Under the pieces are notes generated by a model. The model ran no database searches. It saw only the letters and a program-made list of their open reading frames with translations, and was not told the DNA's origin. Shown here one piece after another: positions 3,802 through 22,674 of a DNA stretch of 64,000 nucleotides. The stretch is from Oidiodendron maius Zn. Taxonomy: Eukaryota; Ascomycota; Leotiomycetes; Myxotrichaceae. The stretch covers positions 372,001 through 436,000 of the forward strand of contig KN832892.1 in NCBI GenBank assembly GCA_000827325.1. Direction: 5' to 3'. The first letter of the stretch is position 1. The number at the start of each line of letters is the position of its first letter. The position numbers and the translations under genes were made by a program.

Positions 3802-6166
3802 ATGGTTTTTACTTCGACAGCGGCTCATAAATCGGTGCTGAGTGGCGATACTCAGACCAAATCTAGGGAGAAACATCTAATCAAAAAGGAGCCAAACGAA
3901 GATGCTCAGGATCCAAAGAAGACGAAGCTTAAGGAACATACGGACTACACCAGATGGCGGCTCTTTGATGAAAAGGGAAGACAAACATGGCACTACCTTG
4001 AGAATGATGATAACGTAAAGGACTGGCCTCAATCTACTGCAGACAAATACTTCCTGGGTCTGCCAACAGTATGTTACCATCCTCGAGCCGTCAGTTACTT
4101 GCTGACATGGCATAGAATCTCCCAATACTTCCAGAACCAAAAACCTCTCTCGATTCCGTCAAGAATGGCCTTGAATTCTTCCAACACCTTCAACTTCCGC
4201 CAGGCAATTGGGGCTGCGAATATGGTGGCCCAATGTTCTTGCTTCCAGGTCTGGTAATTGCATGGATTGTGACCGAGACTCCAATTCCAGATGGGCACGC
4301 GATCGAGATCAAAAACTACCTCTTTGCACGCCAGCACCGCGAAGATGGGGGCTGGGGACTTCACATTGAAGGAGAAAGTACTGTGCTTGGCACATCGATG
4401 AATTACACAGCTCTACGGCTGCTTGGAGTTAGCGAGGAAGACGAACGAATGATAAAGGCAAGAGGCTTATTACACAAGATGGGCGGCGCATTGAATGCAC
4501 CTCATTGGGCAAAGTTCTGGCTTAGTGTACTTGGTGTTTGTCAATGGGAGATTGTCAACCCAATACCGCCTGAAACCTGGCTGTTACCTGATTTGGCCCC
4601 CTTTTCGCCGTGGAGATGGTGGATACACACGCGTCAGGTGTTCCTTCCTATGGGCTTCATCTGGTCGAAGCGTTGGAGTTACAGGTTGACCCCTCTCACC
4701 AAGCAAATACGAGAGGAGCTGTTCACCCAGCCCTACGAGTCAATCGATTGGGTTGGCAATCGTAATAGCATTCACGAAAGGGACAATTACCACCCAAAGA
4801 CGTGGCTTCTCAATGCTATGAACTGGGTTCTTGTGAATGTTTATCCTTACTTTCGAACGGAATCTTTAGCGGAGAAGGCTGAGGACTGGTCGTTTAAACT
4901 CATTCAGATGGAGGACAAAAACACCGATTTCACGAATCTTGGTTCCGTTAATGGGCCTCTGAACATGATTGCGTGCTATATTCGCGAAGGCCCTGACGCC
5001 TACTCCGTGGAGCGCCATCGTGAGCGACTCGAGGACTACCTGTGGGTGAAGGATGAAGGCATGTTGATGAATGGCACGAATGGAGTTCAATGCTGGGATA
5101 CTGCTTTTGTAGTCCAATCTGTTGTTGGTGCAGGTATAGCGGAGGATCAAAAGTGGAAACCGATGCTCATGAAGGCATTGGAGTTCCTTGATGACCAACA
5201 GATTCGAGAGAACGTCGACGATCAGGAAATGTGCTATCGCCAGCAAAGAAAGGGAGCCTGGGCTTTCAGTAACAAGGATCAAGGGTACGCAGTTAGCGAT
5301 TCTATGTCAGAAGCTCTCAAAGCAGTCCTGCTCCTTCAACACACACCTGGATTTCCCGCATTACTCGAAGACCAACGAATCTATGATGCCGTCGATACCC
5401 TGCTAACCTATAGTAACGCCTCTGGAGGTTGTGCATCATACGAGCCCACTCGAGGATCTGAGCGCCTAGAAATGTTGAATACAGCGGAAGTCTTCGGCAG
5501 AATTATGATCGAGTATGACTATCCTGAATGTACAACCGCAGTGGTGACAGCGCTATCGTTGTTCACAAGGTATTATCCAAATTATAGAACTGCCGATATC
5601 AAAATATTCAAAGAGAGAGCCATTGGCTACATTCGAAGAGCGCAATTCCCGGATGGTAGCTGGTATGGAAGTTGGGGTATCTGCTTCACATACGCGGGCA
5701 TGTTCGCTCTCGAAAGCCTTGCTAGCATTGGTGAGACGTATGTGAACAGCGAGGCTGTTCGGAAAGGCTGCGACTTCCTCATTTCTAAGCAAAGAAGTGA
5801 TGGCGGCTGGTCTGAAAGCTACAAAGTTTGTCTTCCTAACAACCCCTACCCTGCAACCTCTAACATGAAATCCAGTCGTGCGAGCAAGCCAAGTACATCG
5901 AGCATCCAGACGGATCACAAGTTGTACAAACAGCATGGGCTTGTATAGCCCTGCTAGAAGCCCACTACCCTGGCCGCGCCCGTATCGAGAAAGGTTTGAG
6001 GCTCATCACGGGGAGACAGCAACCAAATGGGGAGTGGTTGCAGGAAGGGATTGAAGGTGTTTTCAACAGGAGCTGCATGATATCGTACCCGAACTACAAG
6101 TTCATCTTCCCGATCAAGGCATTGGGCATGTTTGCCATGCGGTATGGAGATGATGCGCTCTTGTGA
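3802..6166 (+). CDS. ERG7: Oxidosqualene cyclase, lanosterol-synthase type
   Basis: Three exons, 3802-4068, 4116-5825 and 5876-6166, with introns of 47 and 50 bp, encode about 755 residues, the normal fungal lanosterol synthase size. The enzyme folds 2,3-oxidosqualene into a sterol precursor at the ER or lipid-droplet membrane. Family features run along its length: D-Y-T-R-W-R-L near residue 48, [16 protein letters not shown] near 120, [17 protein letters not shown], and QW repeats including [22 protein letters not shown] and N-G-E-W-L-Q-E. The catalytic block usually reads D-C-T-A-E. Here it is D484-S-M-S-E: the proton-donating Asp is kept and the adjacent Cys is Ser. Both intron joins restore conserved protein sequence, so the gene appears intact. 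It could be the housekeeping enzyme or a paralogue. No sterol-tailoring genes are adjacent. Confidence 0.93.
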
Positions 6167-8100: not shown

Positions 8101-9465
8101 CTAGAAATTCTTAGGAGTCTTCCATTCAAATGAATCGAATTGATTTACGTCAAACTTTGGCTCGCGCTTCAGGACGCTCCCGAGAATCTGCTCGCCGTCC
8201 TTGATGAGACTTCCGAAGTTGAATGGCTCAGGCTCGCGCTTCAGGACGCTCCCGAGAATTTGCTCGCCATCTTTGATAAGGCTTCCGAAGTTGAATGGCT
8301 CAGGCTCTGGCTCGCGCTTCAGGACACTCCCGAGAATCTGCTCGCCATCCTTGATGAGACTTCCGAAGTTGAATGGCTCAGGCTCGCGCTTTAGGACGCT
8401 CCCGAGAATTTGCTCACCATCCTTGATAAGGCTTCCGAAGTTGAATGGCTCAGGCTCTGGCTCGCGCTTCAGGACACTCCCGAGAATCTGCTCGCCGTCT
8501 TTGATAAGGCTTCNNNNNNNNNNNNNNNNNNNNNNNNNNNNNNNNNNNNNNNNNNNNNNNNNNNNNNNNNNNNNNNNNNNNNNNNNNNNNNNNNNNNNNN
8601 NNNNNNNNNNNNNNNNNNNNNNNNNNNNNNNNNNNNNNNNNNNNNNNNNNNNNNNNNNNNNNNNNNNNNNNNNNNNNNNNNNNNNNNNNNNNNNNNNNNN
8701 NNNNNNNNNNNNNNNNNNNNNNNNNNNNNNNNNNNNNNNNNNNNNNNNNNNNNNNNNNNNNNNNNNNNNNNNNNNNNNNNNNNNNNNNNNNNNNNNNNNN
8801 NNNNNNNNNNNNNNNNNNNNNNNNNNNNNNNNNNNNNNNNNNNNNNNNNNNNNNNNNNNNNNNNNNNNNNNNNNNNNNNNNNNNNNNNNNNNNNNNNNNN
8901 NNNNNNNNNNNNNNNNNNNNNNNNNNNNNNNNNNNNNNNNNNNNNNNNNNNNNNNNNNNNNNNNNNNNNNNNNNNNNNNNNNNNNNNNNNNNNNNNNNNN
9001 NNNNNNNNNNNNNNNNNNNNNNNNNNNNNNNNNNNNNNNNNNNNNNNNNNNNNNNNNNNNNNNNNNNNNNNNNNNNNNNNNNNNNNNNNNNNNNNNNNNN
9101 NNNNNNNNNNNNNNNNNNNNNNNNNNNNNNNNNNNNNNNNNNNNNNNNNNNNNNNNNNNNNNNNNGAATGGCTCAGGCTCACGCTTTAGGACGCTCCCGA
9201 GAATCTGCTCGCCGTCCTTGATGAGACTTCCGAAGTTGAATGGTTCAGGCTCTGGTTCGCGCTTCTGGTTACCCTTGATCGCACCATGAATGGTGTCATA
9301 TGCACCCGCAACATCGCTGACAATTCCAGATCCCGTCGAGATGCCATCGGCGATCTTTCCGAGGTGGACCTTAGGGACAGGGGCGGCTTTGACACCAGAG
9401 GCGACGGTCCGCGTGGACAGGAAAGCTACTGCCAGAGCAGCTGTGTGTTTTGCAGAGAAATGCAT
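8101..9465 (-). CDS. Secreted Kex2-type repeat peptide precursor, interrupted by an assembly gap
   Basis: The ATG at 9465 starts a signal peptide (M-H-F-S-A-K-H-T-A-A-L-A-V-A-F-L-S-T). A linker of about 45 residues follows, then tandem units each opening with Lys-Arg. Every unit has the same 18-residue core, FNFGSLIKDGEQILGSVL, preceded by Glu-Pro dipeptides: two in 24-residue units, three in 26-residue units, alternating where visible. Lys-Arg is the Kex2 site, and X-Pro dipeptides are what Ste13/DPP-IV-type aminopeptidases remove, as in alpha-factor maturation. The last Lys-Arg is followed by a short non-repeat tail ending in T-P-K-N-F and the stop at 8101-8103. Six core copies are visible, five complete or nearly so outside the gap and one cut by it. 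Bases 8514-9165 are N, so the copy number is unknown. No Cys or Tyr occurs in the core, and no UstY/DUF3328 gene is seen nearby. The product may be a set of identical secreted peptides or a RiPP precursor. The function is unknown. Confidence 0.85.
   Translation of the reverse strand: MHFSAKHTAALAVAFLSTRTVASGVKAAPVPKVHLGKIADGISTGSGIVSDVAGAYDTIHGAIKGNQKREPEPEPFNFGSLIKDGEQILGSVLKREPEPFXXXXXXXXXXXXXXXXXXXXXXXXXXXXXXXXXXXXXXXXXXXXXXXXXXXXXXXXXXXXXXXXXXXXXXXXXXXXXXXXXXXXXXXXXXXXXXXXXXXXXXXXXXXXXXXXXXXXXXXXXXXXXXXXXXXXXXXXXXXXXXXXXXXXXXXXXXXXXXXXXXXXXXXXXXXXXXXXXXXXXXXXXXXXXXXXXXXXXXXXXXXXXXXXXXXXXXXXXXSLIKDGEQILGSVLKREPEPEPFNFGSLIKDGEQILGSVLKREPEPFNFGSLIKDGEQILGSVLKREPEPEPFNFGSLIKDGEQILGSVLKREPEPFNFGSLIKDGEQILGSVLKREPKFDVNQFDSFEWKTPKNF
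8164..9264 (-). repeat. Coding tandem repeat, alternating 72- and 78-bp units
   Basis: Units of 72 bp (two Glu-Pro) and 78 bp (three Glu-Pro) alternate as a 150-bp higher-order repeat. Copies differ at several positions, for example ctcgccgtcc / ctcgccatct and aggacg / aggaca. Every difference I found in the core is synonymous. Confidence 0.9.
8514..9165. other. Assembly gap (652 N) inside the repeat array
   Basis: A run of N spans 8514-9165. Joining the flanks leaves 7 bases to finish the interrupted unit, so 645 bases of units would fill the stated gap. That is divisible by 3 but not a sum of 72s and 78s, so the gap length is probably an estimate or hides a variant unit. Confidence 0.95.
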
Positions 9466-9513: not shown

Positions 9514-12100
9514 TCGGAAGGCGGTGTTATTGGTGAGGATAGAGACGATTTGGAGAGGAGGATATGAGGAAGGGGAGGGTGAGGATGCTGATTTGAATGC
9601 CGTGCAAAAACAACGGAATCACGAACTTATTATATAGCCAGAGATGCCCAACGAAGGACCTGAATAAAACCTAGACATCGTGATAGCTGAGCCGCCTATT
9701 GGCCGACGAGAGGCCCGTTGATTCTGGCATCCTTTAGGATTTCTGCAAACAAGCTTTGCCGCGCATATTTAAAGAAGTCTAAATAACTATGCCTGTTCAA
9801 CAGGGGTATTGCATCGCACATTGGCCAGCTGCTGGCCACTTGGGAAGATGCTTAGATCTACTTGGGGGGCGGTGGACCTGCGGCCCTGAAAGTTTTTGCG
9901 GCTGTGGCGCGCGCAGCAAAAATACTGTTTTAGGCTACCGCTAAACTTTAAGGCTTAGATCACGCCTTCTGCTCTCGTATTGGCAGTGGCTCTACCTGTT
10001 ACAGCTATGTTGCAGGGCAAGCCCATATTGAGCCCGAATCCTCCCCAGCCACAAGATCTCACTTGATCTGGAAGCTCCATTCGCGTTGATGAGCTTTCCA
10101 GACAAGCCTTGCTCGCTAGAGGCTTACTGTACCTGGTGTGGCCAGCCCCGGGTTACGCCCCAGGGGGTAAAACACGACATGCTGGTATTATTAGAATGTT
10201 AAGGTTACCTGCTCTGTAGTCCGCGCCATGATCCTTTGGGATCGCGACATTAAAGGAACGCGCCTGAAGCTCTCCGCACTACGTAACTTCTCAGTTGCAG
10301 TTGCGGTCACGTGATGCACTTTATCTCTTGATCATGGGATATCTCCTTTGAACTACATTATTTAGCTAGAAAGCCTCATCTCTTTTAACTAGGGGCTGTA
10401 ATACGAGTATTTCTACGAGTATAAAGCTTACTTTATATAATTGACTTAATTCTGTAGAGGCTACCCTCTAAACCCCCGGTTCTCGCTCTATGCTCGTGTG
10501 ATGTAAAGTTCAGAACAAAGTTGTCAAGCTTGATCGCGCAGCCGACAGATTACCTGGGTAAAGCAGTCGGAAGGTTGGAAACTCACAAGGGATAATCCAG
10601 CGCCTATTCCATTGATCAAGAAATTAATAAAGCGACGAGGAATAACTTTAAGTTCGCCCGTCTTCTTGTAGCCAATCACTAGTCTATTATCAGCTTTATC
10701 TGCATTGAATTGATCAAGTGAGCTCACTCTGATCAGCGATATCTTCCCCCAATGTCTGCTTAATCTTAGGGACTTTATCTGTTGACACAGTCGTGCTAGC
10801 ATTTGCAGCCGCATAGACGCTCTTCGTGAGTTGATAATAATCCTAACCCCGCGCTAAGATCCTTTGGCGATTGAGAGCTAGGGAGCAGGTCTCAATTTTC
10901 TTCCTTACATTTGTCTGGTTTGCAGTACGTTGGATTTTCGAAGCCTTGTTTCTCTGCAATATTCCATTATCCATCCACTCAGGCTTCGGCCCGTATCCGT
11001 GACATTCTAACTGATAGGAAAATGCGTGTAGAGCAAAGGGCGAGTCTCGTAGTATTTATTCCCGCGGACTCGGTTTGTCCAGCGGCCATACAGGCTTCGT
11101 GTGGCTTGATACAGGAGCATTCTACATAAAGCATACCAATGAAGGGAATACTAAGTGAAGAGAACAGGACTTACAATTTACAAGAGTCGTAGTCATGCTG
11201 AATAGCACAATTTGCGATGTTTATGTCACGGTCCAGAGTTTTAATCGTATTTAGGAAGAGGAATAAAACTATGAGCGAGAAGAGATCCAAATCACATTAT
11301 GCATAATACAAGCTTGCGATAGTAGAAGTTATGAATAGGAATACAAAGCAAAATAGATGTCAGCTAAAGCTTTATAGATTATCCTCAGCAATAAGTTAAG
11401 TTAAGTTTAACTGAACACGTTACGCGCATCCATTCTCATGTTCCTGGTGGCGATAAGTATACGGCGCTATACTGGAATGCCAAAGGAATGACAGTCTGAG
11501 ATTAATCGGGGTCCGGCGCAGCAACGAGGTCCAAACCCAAACCAGAATGCCTCAGTAAGTAGTTGCAGGCTATGCTCCCTGTCAAATTAAGGAGGACAAG
11601 CTTGTAGTCCACTAGTTATTAAATTCTTTAATATTTTCTAACTTTAAGTATAATCCTCCATATAGAATAATAAAGACATAGAATAGAAAGAATAGTTCTA
11701 AAGCGACAACTTTAAAATACGTCGTTTGTACTCTCTATAAAAGCATATTATTCAATTGGAGAAAGTTAAGAATTTATATAAAACTCTTTAAGATTAGTAA
11801 TTTTAGATTAACGTTTAGTTGAATACTCTACGCGCTCTCTCTCTGTTCGAAGCTCCTTCTCTCCAAGTATGATAGGGGTACCCAACGCCGAGATGAAGGC
11901 TTATAATGAGGAATTATACATCAGGCTCTGAATTGCTGGTTGATCTCTGCGGTGATCGTTTAAGAAGATGAGACAAGATTGCAGGTTTGTCTAAGCAGCT
12001 AGTCGTCGACAATTCTAGCTAAGAGAGTTCTCTGCCTTTGTAGATCCAGAGATATGTTGCCTTCCTGCAGAGCTACTACTAATCCCACCATACCTGTCAC
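9514..12100. other. Intergenic, degraded sequence; no supported gene
   Basis: Promoter side of the repeat-peptide gene, followed by about 2.5 kb without a recognisable coding region. A 96-codon minus frame at 10524-10814 and a 72-codon plus frame at 10911-11129 match nothing I know. AT-rich stretches at 11380-11440 and 11600-11850 share a degenerate direct similarity (a taa-gttta-ctgaa-c-c-acgcgc pattern), perhaps decayed repeats. Confidence 0.35.
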
Positions 12101-21890: not shown

Positions 21891-22674
21891 CTAGCCCCAG
21901 AGTTGAGCTTCGCTACAGCCTAGCCAGTCGATATATAATGCACGCTCTCGGAATAGTAATTCGGCTGGAGCACACCCAATTGTAGAGTGCTTTTGGGTAT
22001 TCAGAGCTAAGGTAACCTCAAGCATCCCATCAGCCCACTTCATTAATCCATTGTCCATTTTCCAGGCTCTGGGATTTGTCTTTACTACCCCGTTAGCCTG
22101 CTCCACTAAGCCCTGGGTTTGTGGTGATCTTGGTGCTCCATTAACGATTTGAATCCCAAACTTGCGTAGTAGAATAAGTAATGCTCTTTTTAACTCTTTC
22201 TCATTATCAGATTGCATAATCCTTGGAGCTAAGAAAGCTGCAACTAATTGAGCAAAAGCAGCTGCAATTGGCTCTGCGTGCTTGCTCTTTAATGGATATA
22301 ATTGAGTGTATTTTTTGGAAAGTGATCTTTGACATGTAGAATCCACTTGAATTGGCCGGAAGGATGGTAGCGCAGTTCTTACAAAGCTTTATAACAAAGA
22401 CGACCTCTTGGTGAGTAATTCCATAAATCTTTTGTTGAATTGCAGCCTAGGTCATTATGTAGTCAGTATGGAGATGTTGTAGATGTTCATTTGCAATAGT
22501 ATCAAAGGTCTTGCTCTCTGGAACGGTATATCGAAGGTTTAGGGGCTTGGAATCAGGCCTTCGAAAGATCCTATTGTTAACAAGCTGGAATTCCACGTGC
22601 CCACGATGCTTGAGCCTAGACCCGCAGGCTCCTTGGCTTAAGATCGGGCATATCGGGACGTACAGTACATGCAT
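21891..22674 (-). pseudogene. Retroelement integrase remnant
   Basis: Two minus-strand frames hold parts of an integrase. The upstream piece (22674-22447) carries an H-x3-H zinc-binding half (N-E-H-L-Q-H-L-H-T). The downstream piece (22346-21891) carries the rve core: L-K-S-K-H-A-E-P-I-A, then I-M-Q-S-D-N-E-K-E with the catalytic Asp, then P-R-S-P-Q-T-Q-G-L-V-E-Q-A-N-G-V-V with the catalytic Glu, and N-T-Q-K-H-S-T-I-G-C-A-P-A-E-L-L-F. This is the Ty3/gypsy-like (GIN1/KRBA2-type) integrase pattern. The frame break between the pieces and the absence of RT, RNase H and LTRs show it is dead. Confidence 0.75.

Follow-up and report, generated by a model that had tools for sequence, protein, structure and literature searches.

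A putative Kex2-processed repeat precursor of Oidiodendron maius belongs to a dispersed gene family with a similar promoter and prepro and differing secreted cargo

The precursor gene and its array

The window analysed here, a stretch of 64,000 nucleotides from the Leotiomycete Oidiodendron maius Zn, carries at 8101..9465 on its minus strand a single open frame of 454 codons plus TAG, read from an ATG at 9465 to the stop at 8103-8101. Its layout is that of a putative Kex2-processed repeat precursor: a signal peptide, a pro-region ending in Lys-Arg, units of Lys-Arg, two to three Glu-Pro and the 18-residue core FNFGSLIKDGEQILGSVL, and a short tail. An earlier note on this DNA had described a signal peptide followed by tandem Lys-Arg/Glu-Pro/core units, and that description holds with exact coordinates over the open frame. 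The signal peptide, MHFSAKHTAALAVAFLSTRTVASG, was called by eye (as was its boundary) and from its conservation, with dN < dS, among seven loci; together with the start of the prepro it spans 29 codons (9379..9465, minus strand) that are conserved at all 7. Between it and the array lies a 35-residue pro-peptide, VHLGKIADGISTGSGIVSDVAGAYDTIHGAIKGNQ (9265..9369, minus strand), with Lys-Arg at its C end and a presumed N end after Pro-Lys.

Unit 1 (9187..9258, minus strand) comprises (Glu-Pro)3 and a full core at 9240-9187. Unit 2 starts with Lys-Arg, (Glu-Pro)2 and Phe (9166..9186, minus strand) and then runs into 652 N bases at 8514..9165, a gap inside the array that would hide about 8-9 cores if its length is right. 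Beyond it lie a partial core, SLIKDGEQILGSVL (8470..8511), full cores at 8392..8445, 8320..8373, 8242..8295 and 8170..8223, and a C-terminal tail, KREPKFDVNQFDSFEWKTPKNF, with the stop (8101..8169), all on the minus strand. The readable copies (5 complete, 1 partial) are identical at every readable amino acid, as had been claimed, and in-array stops, which the earlier note had named as refuting, are absent from the readable part. Copy number is an estimate, about 14-15 if the gap length is right, because 652 of the 1365 bases are N; at the stated gap length the frame stays open across the gap.

Glu-Pro repeats per spacer number 3 and 2 before the gap, then 3, 2, 3 and 2, with 1 in the last, the spacer of the partial unit falling within the gap. 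As this number alternates between 3 and 2, the array, whose DNA repeats every 150 bases (72 + 78) with 95% matches, looks to be built of 150-base double units. An antisense open frame opposite the array (8201-9289) is taken as a by-product of the repeat.

All 8 variable sites among the cores are third positions and synonymous, when 35 of the 162 possible single changes would be. The probability of such synonymous-only variation is ~5e-6 if sites are independent, a value that is indicative only because copies in the same array are not independent in their evolution. In a paralogue on contig C8, the 7 units differ at 28 sites, of which 21 are third positions, and at only four residues. Synonymous-only core variation rules out chance or a non-coding satellite as the source of the window array; given this variation, the open frame and the like behaviour of C8, the gene is very likely translated.

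Protein searches, which have length and candidate limits, returned no O. maius record for the window gene or the C8 paralogue. The null obtained with the 454-residue window query is partly an artefact, since such a query admits proteins of 0.55-1.75 times its length and so excludes P0002, a relative of 231 residues described below, as too short. Pfam matches of the window array to Allatostatin (24.5 bits) and SAF (17.1 bits) were both below cut-off, and the C8 array gave six weak matches, one of which, HTH_10 at 38.5 bits, exceeded its cut-off of 23.1; all were rejected as repeat artefacts because no single stretch passed alone.

Of the window's stop-to-stop ORFs, 43 run to 130 codons or more, and 25 of these were scanned against Pfam. 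The neighbours identified were a transcription factor, a lanosterol synthase (4116-5948, plus strand; 100% identity to OIDMADRAFT_106855 over 90% of the query), GNAT, MBOAT, amidase and HET proteins, a permease, a desaturase, a sugar transporter, an ADP-ribosylglycohydrolase, an alginate lyase and a rhodopsin-domain protein. A weak match to the integrase core rve at 21891-22388 on the minus strand, with E 0.0011 and 19.7 bits where the cut-off is 32.6, is perhaps a transposon remnant.

A dispersed family with a common promoter block and prepro

Searching the genome with the leader plus one unit, and again with a second leader query that returned the same loci, identified a conserved prepro upstream of differing cargo at seven loci on seven contigs (labelled C1, C3, C4, C8, C11, C21 and C23, the last carrying the window). 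E values ran from 1.1e-61 (window) to 1.6e-4 (C21); the C11 prepro scored 0.199 with the leader plus one-unit query and 3.1e-4 with the second leader query. The seven loci are also linked by blastn. As one genome was searched by similarity, family counts are lower bounds.

The similarity extends upstream. A promoter block at 9581..9714 (minus strand) is common to the window and five other family loci, and in a DNA search its 137-base consensus occurs at six places in the genome, every one a family locus, with C21 absent. We aligned 500 upstream and 150 coding bases of the seven loci and compared them with 20 control sets in which the upstream part was shuffled in two-base blocks. An upstream island from -195 to -116, around a TATA box, reached a 40-column mean pairwise identity of 0.58-0.64, a second block near -250 reached ~0.5 and the prepro island 0.73, against a maximum of 0.39 in the control. 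The box TATATAAT (9629..9636, minus strand), 164-171 bases upstream of the ATG, is exact in 6 of the 7 aligned loci and differs in the copy C1a. The window and C4 have a further 106 bases in common, ~0.8-0.9 kb upstream of the start codon.

Over the 29 codons of the prepro, dN is below dS in 21 of 21 pairs, in some mildly (window-C11, 0.30/0.56), while the closest pair, window-C4, gives 0.09/0.77 over 29 codons and 0.16/1.07 over 69. Past the first pro-peptide, the cargo is mostly unalignable between loci by eye. What we observe is a gene anatomy, a family and selection on the coding sequence: the window gene has relatives scattered over the genome that combine a similar promoter and prepro with differing secreted cargo.

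Several members carry arrays. The C4 copy (C4:960485, plus strand) has three pro-peptide repeats and then EPEP-capped peptides, some with Gln-rich tails, and has an N gap of its own; its array locus (C4:957500-965500) contains 680 N, and the gap length is unreliable because at the given length the reading frames on either side differ. The C8 copy (C8:1701074, minus strand) encodes 254 residues with seven 24-residue VSLGHVADGVGIASDIAQGVGAFV-type units, each except the last followed by Q-RR-EPEP-KR, and the C21 copy (C21:601963, plus strand) has Ala-Gly-Pro-rich repeats. The C11 copy (C11:975238-975531, plus strand) encodes 97 residues; its residues 62-92 matched the Pfam Pup-like model at 31.6 bits (cut-off 27), a match that one would not expect in a fungal protein that is secreted; its Glu/Lys-rich tail may be the cause. 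An eighth, weaker relative, C1b (C1:3469937-3469626, minus strand), was found at E 0.0135 with the second leader query and has no blastn link. Its cargo resembles the segment after Arg-Arg that ends an ORF at C1:1635902-1636075 on the plus strand (E 6.6e-7); this ORF is apparently secreted and lacks a recognisable family prepro.

Two copies bear in-frame stops, and Cys-rich, non-repeat cargo sits in both. C1a (C1:872120-871845, minus strand), with its stop in the signal region and the promoter block present, joins the prepro to an ShK-like domain, which scored 40.8 bits with PF01549 (cut-off 20.9); a PLAC match (22.8 bits) fell below cut-off, and a search for a donor of this cargo elsewhere in the genome gave only a weak match (E 0.026). 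In the C3 copy (C3:2529204, plus strand) an apparent decayed window-type core is followed, after Lys-Arg, by a four-Cys peptide that scored 13-14 bits with a beta-defensin model, below the cut-off of 21. Part of the family is therefore decaying, and the window gene itself might be silent or decaying too, left over from a family that was formerly active. Stops in 2 of 7 copies, and the failure of protein searches to return the window gene and its C8 paralogue, fit such a history; the latter is weak evidence, given the limits of those searches. Against it stand the open readable coding sequence, cores that vary synonymously only and the conserved promoter block with its TATA box, and we regard decay of the window gene as quite unlikely. 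We found no relatives of the family in viral contigs.

One relative was found elsewhere. With the C8 protein as query, P0002 was the sole match at E <= 10 (5.77 billion proteins, 8000 candidates scored). Encoded on a 3,691-base ENA contig, perhaps from a metagenome, it interleaves, after the family prepro, C8-type peptides with two occurrences of KR-EPEP-FNLGGLLKDGEKVLG[S/A]VL-KR, of which the S form shares 13 of the window core's 18 residues and the A form 12 (counted by hand on the alignment). A window-type core is therefore present in a second precursor beside a second family peptide; in the window gene, the partner of the core is the single-copy pro-peptide. Genome searches turned up no P0002-type locus in O. 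maius, so P0002 presumably belongs to another species. The pro-peptide stretch before the window array is homologous to the repeated peptide at C4, C8 and in P0002, and is probably a second product of the gene.

Predicted processing and comparison with known precursors

In alpha-factor maturation, the precursor is cut after KR and X-Pro or X-Ala dipeptides are trimmed by a Ste13-type peptidase; both Ste13 and Dap2 have an N-terminal membrane anchor. A search of the O. maius genome found one kexin-type P domain (P_proprotein match), on contig C12, within exons laid out by eye as a subtilisin-like part, the P domain, a membrane anchor and an acidic tail. It also found a single DPPIV_N protein, which is anchored in the membrane at its N terminus and was assigned from its layout as Ste13-like. 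Judged from the anatomy of the gene and the known alpha-factor pathway, the signal peptide would direct the precursor into the secretory pathway, kexin would cut C-terminal of every Lys-Arg, a Kex1-type carboxypeptidase would take off the two basic residues, and Glu-Pro would probably be removed by a Ste13-type dipeptidyl aminopeptidase. The predicted output is many linear 18-mer copies of the core and one 35-residue pro-peptide, and we hold this precursor and processing reading with high confidence.

The Glu-Pro run may be mainly a spacer or a cleavage enhancer. In C8, EPEP lies between two dibasic sites (RR-EPEP-KR) and is predicted to be cut out whole, which argues that the run is at least partly spacer. 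Of the alpha-factor-like plan that had been proposed, with Kex2 cleavage followed by dipeptidyl aminopeptidase trimming, the Kex2-repeat architecture stands and kexin and Ste13-like genes are present; Glu-Pro, on the evidence of C8, is not simply an N-terminal Ste13 cap.

Fungal Kex2-processed repeat proteins (KEPs) are defined, in the accessible text of the survey by Umemura (2020), by a signal peptide and three or more tandem repeats, each of 8 residues or longer and none longer than 100, between KR, KK, RK or RR (PMC7329392). The window gene has the same plan of a signal peptide and repeats between dibasic sites, with 5 complete cores of 18 residues, all alike and flanked by KR, in a genome with one P_proprotein match, on C12, of kexin layout by eye. 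The array is real, the gene is very probably coding, and it belongs to this class. A new core is in itself ordinary, since 2560 of the 7878 KEPs counted in that text stand alone (PMC7329392). None of the four new Pezizomycotina KEP motifs in the available portion of Le Marquer (2019) resembles the window core by eye (PMC6339444). In the open-access literature, supplements aside, among the matches listed and as far as full texts were accessible, we did not find a shared promoter and prepro with changing cargo for KEPs; searches there also gave nothing related to the core, the other family peptides or the prepro, and no report of O. maius with secreted Kex2-processed peptides. What is less usual is that a similar switch and export module comes with changing cargo, of which the non-repeat, Cys-rich kind sits in two copies with stops.

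Ascomycete alpha-pheromone precursors share with the window gene Kex2 sites followed by X-Pro dipeptides (the STE13 signature; here two to three Glu-Pro after the Kex2 site) and identical short cores. This plan, together with a STE2 receptor gene in the genome, would suit a sexual alpha-pheromone of O. maius, as would the result of a genome search with one DNA pattern for a canonical W-C-xxx-GQ-x-C array, which stayed at chance level (2 matches against 3 with a reversed control); the pattern could also have been missed through an intron, a variant sequence or a gap in the assembly. The alpha-pheromones of Leotiomycetes and Sordariomycetes have, however, a conserved two-Cys core in the text available of PMC6339444, and the window core contains neither Cys nor Trp, in agreement with the earlier observation that it holds no pheromone-like sequence. 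Unlike pheromone precursors, moreover, the window family carries unrelated cargo, and P0002 mixes two peptides, making a mating function extremely unlikely.

The core also lacks Tyr, and the absence of Cys and Tyr noted before is confirmed in FNFGSLIKDGEQILGSVL. Dikaritin cores contain a cyclisable residue such as Tyr. Dikaritin and epichloecyclin precursors resemble the window gene in plan, and 70 exons in the genome match UstYa (PF11807, DUF3328), so that a modified or cyclic RiPP precursor of that type had to be weighed. None of the 70 matches lies on contig C23 and none of the 25 Pfam-scanned ORFs of the window is UstYa, while on the contigs of the other six family loci such matches are > 180 kb away. 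Pfam scans (25 of 43 ORFs) and UstYa matches thus reveal no peptide-tailoring cluster near the window gene, bearing out the claim that no tailoring gene is nearby; the comparison with epichloecyclins and dikaritins survives for architecture and fails for the UstYa neighbour and the cyclisable core residue. As the contig has no UstYa match and the core is free of Tyr, Trp and Cys, we set this reading aside as very unlikely. Several of the UstYa-like exons are clustered (C1:6.50-6.60 Mb, C11, C15:0.92-0.93 Mb and C17), a pattern that points to cyclic RiPP clusters with no connection to the window gene.

Conotoxin and frog-skin peptide precursors combine a conserved signal and prepro with a variable mature peptide, as does the O. 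maius family. Those superfamilies are animal; the fungal family adds a conserved promoter block and a cargo that is often an array. Symbiosis-induced small secreted proteins offer a further comparison, since MiSSP8 of Laccaria bicolor, which the KEP survey cites in its background (PMC7329392, accessible part), and OmSSP1 of O. maius are likewise secreted by mycorrhizal fungi. OmSSP1 is a 93-residue hydrophobin-like protein in the text available of PMC5938622. The tabulated length, GRAVY and Cys content of OmSSP1-7 matched none of C21, C11, C8 and C1b, the four family members computed, and we rejected a link between the family and these published proteins.

Peptide chemistry and possible roles

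We compared helix-range and strand-range hydrophobic moments in 10 family peptides, with p values taken against shuffles and uncorrected for multiple tests. In 10 of 10 the helix-range moment exceeded the strand-range moment, with the best angle at 102-108 degrees when angles of 85-115 degrees were tried, and 7 of 10 were amphipathic at p < 0.05, among peptides whose ends were chosen by the analyst and several of which are mutually homologous. These seven are other family peptides; the three window-type cores are not significantly amphipathic (window, p = 0.09; P0002 forms, 0.17 and 0.19). Amphipathicity is therefore supported for the family and suggested for the window core. Typical antimicrobial peptides are cationic, and the core has a net charge of -1. 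The amphipathicity that the earlier note had suggested has support across the family and falls short of significance in the window core by itself.

Characterised KEPs act in mating, in virulence and as modulators of mutualism, and are described as 'mostly involved in biotic interactions' in the accessible text of PMC9769878, and O. maius is an ericoid mycorrhizal fungus (PMC5938622, text available in part). The likely product of the window gene is a linear 18-mer with a longer partner peptide, and on balance we favour, with moderate confidence, a KEP of a dispersed family that releases linear 18-mers acting outside the hypha on other organisms. Taken alone, a function in biotic interaction is a tentative proposal, to which we give somewhat less than an even chance. 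Once released from the hypha, the peptides might work as helices active at membranes or surfaces, and, by a weak inference, could target competitors in the soil or the root of the ericaceous host, not a mating partner.

A different kind of surface activity is seen in Ustilago maydis, where Rep1 yields Kex2-released, water-repellent peptides that form amyloid-like fibrils (PMC9769878, PMC7329392, both in accessible part). Rep1 is a basidiomycete protein and is likened here by its repetitive precursor plan, not by sequence. Peptides of the window family could similarly self-assemble as a coat on hyphae and alter wetting, an idea that suits short peptides made in many equal copies per precursor and the Gln-rich tails of part of the C4 cargo. 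The helix-range moment exceeds the strand-range moment in the family peptides, though, and diverse cargo including Cys-rich types would be odd for a coat; we judge it fairly unlikely.

Alternatively, the 18-mer could be a non-sexual signal, a hormone for a fungal or plant receptor. Identical copies, conservation of the core in P0002 and the STE13-type spacer would all be expected of one, and KEP surveys discuss hormones and signals in their available text (PMC6339444, PMC7329392). Paralogues with the same promoter block nevertheless deliver differing peptides, which is arsenal-like and fits a signal less well, and we consider a hormone rather unlikely.

More speculatively than the favoured reading of a KEP acting on other organisms, the family might form a venom-style superfamily in O. 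maius and its relatives, with a co-regulated promoter-signal-prepro module that repeatedly acquires new cargo and co-releases paired amphipathic peptides; we regard this as possible but less likely than not. The cargo gained would include 18-mer arrays, 25-mer arrays, and Gln-tailed, ShK-like and Cys-rich peptides, and the paired peptides would perhaps act jointly at a membrane when the fungus competes or colonises roots.

These findings suggest that the scattered family is a little-explored set of secreted molecules. It offers a tractable handle on KEP peptides, with short, defined synthetic targets and a second precursor, P0002, for comparison, in a species that has already been subjected to gene knock-out (PMC5938622, accessible part). 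The common promoter block predicts co-expression of the family, and a search rule based on promoter and prepro can find repeat-less members, such as those with single-copy Cys-rich cargo, that repeat-based KEP surveys would miss. If the reading as a module with changing cargo is true, fungi would build secreted peptide arsenals in the manner of venom and frog-skin systems.
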